In this document: positions 47,521 through 50,308 of the stretch, piece after piece
Numbering within the stretch: the stretch's first letter is position 1
Layout: each line of letters starts with the position of its first letter
Assembly (NCBI GenBank): GCA_021773975.1
Contig: JAJFJN010000046.1
Location: 1 to 64,000, forward strand
Origin: Gammaproteobacteria bacterium
Lineage (GTDB): Bacteria; Pseudomonadota; Gammaproteobacteria; Chromatiales; Chromatiaceae
Length of the DNA: 64,000 nucleotides
Direction of reading: 5' to 3'
Translations under genes and position numbers: made by a program
The notes under the pieces: model-generated
Database searches by the model: none
Told to the model about the DNA's origin: nothing
Seen by the model: only the letters and a program-made list of their open reading frames with translations

Positions 47521-48252
47521 ATGGGTGTGATCAGTGGGTTGAAGAGATAGCTTAGATCCGTAATCCAGTGGGACACCGATGCCAATGACCTGCTCTTTTA
47601 TCAGTGGAGCGACAATGGTAACGAAATAAAGAATGCCTCTCAAATTGTCGTGGGGCCTGGGCAGGGATGCATTTTCGTCTATCGCGGCAAAGTAAAAGCC
47701 ATGCTGCACAAAGAGGGTGTCTATCCCCTAAGAACGGCCAACATCCCCTTTATCACCACGCTGAGCAAGTTCATGCAGTTTTTTGAAAGTGAGCATAAGG
47801 TCGGGATCTGCTTTTTCAAAAAAACAAAAATTCTCGACCAGAAATGGGGCACCAGTTCACCCATCAAATACCAGGATCCAAAATATGATTTCCCCGTTGG
47901 CCTCAAGGCCTATGGGAATTATAGCTACCCGCTTTTTAATCCCCGGAATTTTTTCGTTAATGTAGTGGGCGGCCGAGCATCCTTTAGTATTGAAGATCTA
48001 CGCAAAATTATCTCCAAGCGCATTATCCATCCTCTCAGCGATTATCTGGCTGAATGTAAATATAGCTATGCTGACATTGATGCCAATCGTGATGAAATTG
48101 CTGAAGGTATGGCTGCAGCCTTACAAGCAGTCTTTGATAAGCTCGGATTTCACATGACCGATTTCCGAATTGAGGGTACCAATTTTGATGATGATACCCT
48201 GGGTCGCATTAACCGTATTGCTGATGTCACTGCCGATGCCTTCGCAGCTTAA
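47521..48252 (+). pseudogene. SPFH-domain (YdjI/virion-core-like) protein gene with in-frame amber codon 10
   Basis: From an ATG at 47521 with AGAGGT upstream, the frame reads MGVISGLKR, then TAG at 47548-47550, then LRSVIQWDTDAND and an otherwise uninterrupted 233 codons to 48252. The start matches the N-terminus of SPFH/YdjI-like proteins, where this position is commonly Gln (CAG differs from TAG by one base). The rest is intact: VGPGQGCIFVYRGKV, NIPFITTLSKFMQ, ESEHKVGICFF and KIISKRIIHPLSDYL. A GTG at 47650 could allow a shortened product without the first 43 residues. Alternatively a sequencing error or suppression explains it. Confidence 0.8.
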
Positions 48253-48273
48253 TTTTACTCTGACCCCAGTTAC
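48251..48273. repeat. REP/RAYT-associated-type sequence motif
   Basis: Directly after the SPFH gene is TTTTACTCTGACCCCAGTTA, whose complement resembles the widespread GGGGTCAGAGTAAAA sequence that flanks REP-associated transposase insertions in gammaproteobacteria. It is followed by CAGTTACTTAA twice in tandem (48267-48288). The similarity is recalled, not searched. Confidence 0.45.
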
Positions 48274-48284
48274 TTAACAGTTAC

Positions 48285-48680
48285 TTAATACTCTTCCCCT
48301 GTTTGTGTCGACTCCTTAACCATCCTCACAAATGAGGCAATCAACAGCTCTGGCGTTTTAAAGGCTTGACGATCTAAATAATAAAAAGTGCCAATTTGTG
48401 CGGCATCGCGATAGATACGGTACTCAACCTTTGATTTGGGTGTGACTCCAATGATATATGTTTCATTTTCATCCTTTTCTACTCTTTGCTTGCTTTTTAT
48501 TTCATCAAGGTGAAACAGGGCATTTTGCAGCTCTTTGTTACAGATATTTTGAAATAGTGACAGTGAGTTTGTATCTTCTTTTAGATACGGCTCCCAGGCG
48601 GCATCACTTTCATCTGAGCAATTTAGTTGCAGCTTAATCCAACCAAGTATATGTGCCATTGCTCTATTTAAAGCTGCCAT
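48285..48680 (-). CDS. Small protein co-encoded with the AAA+ ATPase
   Basis: A 131-residue soluble protein without signal peptide. It has an N-terminal helical half (AHILGWIKLQLNCSDE) and a C-terminal beta-rich half with VEYRIYRDAAQIGTFYYLDR. It starts 24 bases after the ATPase gene on the same strand, so the two are probably cotranscribed. No family is recognised. A role as an adaptor or substrate of the ATPase is only an inference from position. Confidence 0.6.
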   Translation of the reverse strand: MAALNRAMAHILGWIKLQLNCSDESDAAWEPYLKEDTNSLSLFQNICNKELQNALFHLDEIKSKQRVEKDENETYIIGVTPKSKVEYRIYRDAAQIGTFYYLDRQAFKTPELLIASFVRMVKESTQTGEEY

Positions 48681-48704: not shown

Positions 48705-50210
48705 TTAATTGTCATCACTGAATGAAAGCTCTCTGCCTTTTCCTTTGGATGCTGGAGTTGCTCTATCCCACGCCCAATCCCTAATCTTTTTCACCTGTTC
48801 TTTCATTGTTTCTGAGAGTGGAACGATTGTATCAATATGCTTGGCAATGTCTTTTGTTGTAAATTTATGGCCTTGACTGGTGGCATCGATTCGCCCGCCA
48901 TTTACTGCCTGTTCAATCTCTGCTGCATTCCACTCTTTTGTTATTTTTGTAAGATGTTTAATATTAAAATCATCAGGATTTTGTCTGTTTGCTTTAATAT
49001 GTATTTTTAGAATCTCTGCCCGTTCTTCATCATCGGGGAGATCACAAAAGAAGACCTGATCAAAGCGTCCTTTACGAATAAGTTCTGCAGGCAGTGATTC
49101 AATTTGATTGGCTGTTGCAGCAACAAAGACCAAGGGGGGCTTTTCTTGCATCCAGGTTAAGAAGGCTGAAAACACGTGTGACTGATTAATGTTGCCACCT
49201 TCAAGCAGACCCAATCCGTTTTCTATTTCATCAATCCATAGCACGGCAGGCGCAGCACTCTCTACGGTTTGCGTTACTTTATGAAACGCGGCTTCTGGGC
49301 TGCCATGCATTTGTGAAAATATAAGATTCATGTCCAATCTAAAAAGCGGCACATTCCATGTTTTAGCTACGGCCTTGGCACACAGACTCTTACCGCAGCC
49401 GCTAATGCCCATAATAAGAATACCTCTGGGTATTGGCATATCATCCAATTGTGCTTTGTGGGTGAAGAGTTGTTTTCTTGCATTGATCCACTCTTTTAAT
49501 CGACCCAAGCCACCCACCTGATTAATATCCATATCAACTGGAACGTACTCTAAACTGCTCATGCCTCCACTGGTTACTCGACGCTTTTTGCATTCATTGA
49601 TTAAATTTGTGACAGCTACAGTGGTTATTTTTTCACAATGATTTATTTGATGCATAACATGGGTTGCATCATTTAGCGTGAGCCCACAGAGAGAGTGCGC
49701 GATATCTTTCAATGCTTTATCACGCAGTTTTCTGGTAGCAGTCTCTTTTTGAAGTTCATTCAGATGAGCTAACATCTCTGCCAAAGATGGCAGCGCAACG
49801 TCCAGCTGATAAATAACGCTGCTTAATCTGTTGGGAACTGTTTTGTCTGGTGAGATGATAAATATAAACAGATCATTTCGTTTACAGAATTTTTCATAGG
49901 CATCTAGCAGCAGCCTATCGAGTTGTGGCTTTCCGGTAAAATCCAGCAGATCTTTCATGATATAAAAGCCTGGCTTGCTATCATCGATAATAAGCTTTAG
50001 TGCTTTTGCCGGATCTTTTGTCTCTTCAGCTACATCTTTAATATCCAGCCCATTTGTACATGACCAGATAACCACGGGAAAGTCATCCGACTGCTTTTCT
50101 GCCAGCTGACGTAGTAGTTTAACAACACGACGCTCTTCTGTGCTATTAAGATAGATTATGGGGTACTGACCTGTAATGGCTTTTTCTATCTCTTTTGTTA
50201 CTTCAGCCAT
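48705..50210 (-). CDS. AAA+ ATPase, Ycf46-like
   Basis: A 501-residue ATPase. The start at 50210 (MAEVTKEIEKAITGQYP) is preceded by AGGAAAC. The N-terminal 230 residues form a Ycf46-like degenerate ATPase region, with YPIIYLNSTEERRV and FIISPDKTVPNRLSS. The C-terminal AAA module has Walker A GISGCGKS (268-275), Walker B VLWIDEIEN (D327, E328) and GRFDQVFFCDLP around the arginine finger. Its biological role is unknown; cyanobacterial and plastid Ycf46 is linked to inorganic-carbon use, but transfer of that role here is unsupported. It is followed by the small partner gene. Confidence 0.78.
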   Translation of the reverse strand: MAEVTKEIEKAITGQYPIIYLNSTEERRVVKLLRQLAEKQSDDFPVVIWSCTNGLDIKDVAEETKDPAKALKLIIDDSKPGFYIMKDLLDFTGKPQLDRLLLDAYEKFCKRNDLFIFIISPDKTVPNRLSSVIYQLDVALPSLAEMLAHLNELQKETATRKLRDKALKDIAHSLCGLTLNDATHVMHQINHCEKITTVAVTNLINECKKRRVTSGGMSSLEYVPVDMDINQVGGLGRLKEWINARKQLFTHKAQLDDMPIPRGILIMGISGCGKSLCAKAVAKTWNVPLFRLDMNLIFSQMHGSPEAAFHKVTQTVESAAPAVLWIDEIENGLGLLEGGNINQSHVFSAFLTWMQEKPPLVFVAATANQIESLPAELIRKGRFDQVFFCDLPDDEERAEILKIHIKANRQNPDDFNIKHLTKITKEWNAAEIEQAVNGGRIDATSQGHKFTTKDIAKHIDTIVPLSETMKEQVKKIRDWAWDRATPASKGKGRELSFSDDN

Positions 50211-50308
50211 TTTTGTTTCCTGTCTATTAAGGTTTAATTGCAATCAGCAACACTAAGCTGCTTTAATTTTTGATAAGCCATGTCTGACTTTGATTAATTT
50301 GTATCGAA

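Follow-up and report, generated by a model that had tools for sequence, protein, structure and literature searches.

A probable pseudogene remnant of an SPFH-SHOCT locus with an in-frame amber codon at position 10

YdjI, an SPFH protein of Bacillus subtilis, helps bring PspA to the membrane, and the link to PspA and YdjG/H is known for this B. subtilis protein only (PMC8581546). Here we analyse a gene for another SPFH-domain protein in a 64,000-nucleotide stretch of gammaproteobacterial DNA, referred to below as the window. Like YdjI (PMC8581546), the encoded protein has an SPFH domain and, by inspection, no obvious N-terminal transmembrane anchor. Its frame is interrupted by TAG at the tenth codon, and we conclude that it is very probably an ordinary pseudogene, the remaining 5' part of a locus that was acquired horizontally, carries two lesions and has decayed fairly recently.

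The reading frame and its tenth codon

The remnant occupies positions 47521 to 48252 of the forward strand and corresponds to codons 1-243 of a family whose members run to 335-344 codons, a range taken from the relatives whose stop falls inside the fetched DNA. Ahead of its ATG at 47521 lies AGAGGT, which resembles a ribosome-binding site; nine codons follow, then an in-frame TAG on the forward strand at 47548-47550 (codon 10), and then 233 open codons, beginning LRSVIQW, up to the TAA at 48250-48252. An earlier sequence-only reading had described this arrangement and assigned the gene to the SPFH proteins. Both are borne out: the frame after the TAG matches Band_7_1 (SPFH, PF13421) at 6e-37, scoring 127.7 bits where the cut-off is 24, and beyond the amber at codon 10, codons 11-243 carry no further lesion.

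A scan of public genomes yielded 27 related loci, mostly from Methylomonas and other methanotrophs related to it; the nearest relative is Motiliproteus sp. MSK22-1 (82% identical over codons 1-243). The TAG replaces a residue that is invariant among the relatives compared: in the 23 whose 5' end is complete and unbroken, all of them sharing the same ATG, codon 10 is Gln in every case (CAG or CAA). The glutamine that the sequence-only reading gave for the family at this position is thus the right one, and the relatives all begin at the upstream ATG rather than after the interrupted codon. Since Motiliproteus has CAG here, one C-to-T difference accounts for the TAG, which fits well with the single base change proposed before. 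A separate departure at the 5' end is found in a Methyloglobulus bin (L031, around 3971), where AAG stands at the position of the start ATG and the frame is broken; codon 10 is still Gln there.

The missing tail, the missing partner and the break

Full-length relatives continue past the SPFH core through a Gly-rich linker into a C-terminal SHOCT domain (matched at 2.8e-06 in Motiliproteus), and a TFIIB-type zinc-ribbon gene (PF13453 in Motiliproteus) directly follows in nearly all relatives whose loci extend far enough for it to be seen. The window copy ends at codon 243, so that about 95 last codons are missing; homology to Motiliproteus DNA reaches this codon, an alanine before the TAA, and the alignment ends three bases later. 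Neither the SHOCT tail nor the zinc-ribbon gene was found downstream or elsewhere in the window, nor in the rest of the genome in a search run without a positive control. The sequence itself therefore shows two lesions, the amber and the truncation, together with an absent partner. The sequence-only reading had taken everything but the amber to be intact; with the truncation it overlooked, the verdict shifts from a puzzling intact gene to a pseudogene, as the disabling lesions stand against conserved full-length homologues.

The pair itself, an SPFH-SHOCT gene and at once a TFIIB-type zinc-ribbon gene, is conserved at L005 3971-5706 and in the Methylomonas loci. At an E-value threshold of 0.01, no solved-structure relative of the Motiliproteus protein was found. 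In a methane-oxidizing endosymbiont of Gigantopelta (L029 2202-4879), an insertion of about 1.6 kb interrupts the SPFH relative, and the ORFs of this insertion look transposase-like by eye; this split gene in a methanotroph endosymbiont suggests that loss recurs.

Downstream of the remnant, and convergent with it, a small protein gene on the reverse strand (48285-48680) has no Pfam or NCBIfam match and is not part of the SPFH locus of relatives; next to it, also on the reverse strand, lies an AAA+ ATPase gene (48705-50243), which is unlinked to the SPFH gene in relatives. The idea that the SPFH gene is linked to the ATPase and small protein was considered and rejected, as no such linkage is present within the fetched flanks of the relatives.

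The 3' break (48250-48272, forward strand) consists of the TAA and a 20-base motif, TTTTACTCTGACCCCAGTTA (48253-48272), and SPFH homology ends here. Within the genus, 3 of 6 genomes hold exact copies of the motif, compared with 0 of 188 other genomes of the family, and a reversed-motif control gave no matches in the genomes listed. In one relative (G005), two motif arms make a perfect inverted repeat of 23 bp, and its fold is far better than those of shuffled sequences (z = -7.9). In another genome (G001) a truncated N-terminal domain of a phage integrase directly adjoins the motif. In the window's own genome, four places carry the motif with at most one mismatch; one of them (C81:335) is a one-mismatch copy directly after the stop of a transposase-like frame, the C-terminus of which resembles that of an IS200-like transposase, with 10 of 23 residues identical (E 3e-04 in a single comparison). 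Judged by sequence, the break motif looks like a single arm of a palindromic or transposon-end repeat limited to the genus. A classic REP was rejected as its identity, the copy number of four places with at most one mismatch being too low; the high-copy short palindrome and RAYT gene that define REP elements are not what is seen here, where the palindrome is found in one relative. We infer that the loss of the 3' end came about in an event with its endpoint at a mobile-element end, the element not being present whole. That the break is marked by the 20-base motif only, with no whole element, is a counterpoint to the pseudogene reading.

Two further observations concern the mobile sequences themselves. 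The inverted repeat that the two motif copies form in G005 (L092, G005:C153) is possibly a genus-specific miniature element, and at G000:C45:143686-144010 an IS200-like transposase is broken by a TAG and apparently also by a frame shift.

Taken together, the proposed course of events would begin with a horizontally acquired two-gene locus, in which a gene for an SPFH-SHOCT membrane-scaffold protein was followed by one for a TFIIB-type zinc-ribbon protein. The roughly 95 last codons and the partner gene would have been lost in a rearrangement or deletion with its endpoint at a short mobile-element end, and a separate point change would have created the amber at codon 10. Translation initiated at 47521 would yield a nine-residue peptide before the ribosomes stop, and the gene probably gives no SPFH product.

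It is possible, if unlikely, that the amber base is instead an artefact of sequencing or assembly, or a variant carried by a minority strain, in which case the true gene would be a 243-codon one for a C-terminally truncated SPFH protein, possibly still produced. The TAG and the CAG found in the nearest relative differ by one base, the codons behind it are free of other lesions, and the window belongs to a 3.48-Mb genome in 113 contigs, an assembly that may be a metagenome bin. However, polished assemblies seldom contain substitution errors, and the 3' truncation and absent partner indicate decay independently of this base; an error here would still leave the truncation unexplained and the gene not whole.

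Translation, age and acquisition

For a frame that lies open and conserved in pattern beyond its TAG, read-through by suppression or natural misreading, as suggested earlier, could in principle give a working 243-residue protein. We regard this as very unlikely on several counts. An ARAGORN scan of tRNA loci found no CUA anticodon among 35 genes, in a list from which several expected tRNAs are absent, and when a CUA anticodon loop followed by a T-arm was sought with a targeted pattern, the only match was the D-arm of tRNA-Gln(CTG). RF1 is intact, with a family-model match well above the cut-off and no stops, and a second release-factor match resembles RF2. TAG is in ordinary use as a stop, terminating 5 of 34 window ORFs of at least 300 codons, and none of the 46 ABC-domain matches (38 of them strong) contains an internal stop. 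Codon reassignment or suppression was rejected on these grounds. Furthermore, the product of read-through would lack both the SHOCT tail and the partner, and it is extremely improbable that such a truncated core is made at a low level in this way and has taken on a new role.

Restart downstream of the amber fares similarly. An in-frame GTG on the forward strand at 47650-47652 (codon 44) heads an ORF that continues to 48252, and initiation there would give the shorter, 200-residue SPFH protein that had been proposed as an alternative. This candidate start is unlikely to rescue function: it follows a strongly conserved stretch, has no clear ribosome-binding site ahead of it, and would delete residues 1-43, which include the RSVI, NG and EIKNAS runs invariant in all relatives as well as the start of the Pfam domain. 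With the relatives all beginning at the upstream ATG, we hold a GTG-initiated product to be highly improbable.

A further counterpoint to the pseudogene reading is the coding pattern kept by the codons behind the TAG. Because synonymous sites are saturated, dN/dS (NG86, YN00) was mostly unusable and codon-position counts were used instead. Differences between the window and Motiliproteus number 28, 16 and 131 at codon positions 1, 2 and 3, and the codon changes comprise 110 synonymous and 40 nonsynonymous ones. Derived residues are about equal on the two branches (9 on that of the window, 8 on that of Motiliproteus), and at 104 methanotroph-invariant sites the window departs 9 times and Motiliproteus 7 times. 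The near-equal changes on the branches and the codon-position pattern suggest that selection acted over most of the branch, and thus that the loss was fairly recent. The coding pattern and the absence of any other frame break in 233 codons fit recent decay, though they are not proof of it; the recent event already proposed from the sequence fits these data well.

None of five genus mates carries the gene, and other family members hold only relatives of 21-31% identity. At the fumA locus of four genus mates, homology ends at the fumA stop, and the fetched DNA beyond it has no match to the window. This absence and the end of homology place the SPFH gene at a variable site, and it was probably acquired horizontally.

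The significance of the locus is small beyond annotation. It does illustrate why a seemingly isolated in-frame amber should first be compared with full-length relatives, and read-through proposed only afterwards.

Comparison with known systems

The closest counterparts are the SPFH-SHOCT and zinc-ribbon loci of Motiliproteus and Methylomonas, with which the window gene shares its start and SPFH core; it differs from them in the codon 10 amber and in lacking the last 95 or so codons and the partner gene. YdjI itself carries a zinc-finger motif close to the C-terminus and acts together with YdjG/H and PspA (PMC8581546); no such partners are seen beside the remnant. That the intact SPFH-SHOCT family might act similarly to YdjI is offered as a lead only, and the conserved SPFH-SHOCT and zinc-ribbon pairing in methanotrophs gives studies of bacterial SPFH proteins a modest starting point. 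The break motif recalls REP/RAYT-associated repeats (PMC2817692) in the palindrome of one relative and in the copy that directly follows a transposase-like C-terminus, but differs from typical REPs (PMC2817692) in its very low copy number here. Finally, the gene compares with ordinary bacterial pseudogenes that arose through a nonsense change together with a mobile-element-linked truncation; both types of lesion are found in it, its presence in the genus is patchy, and we see no notable difference from that class.
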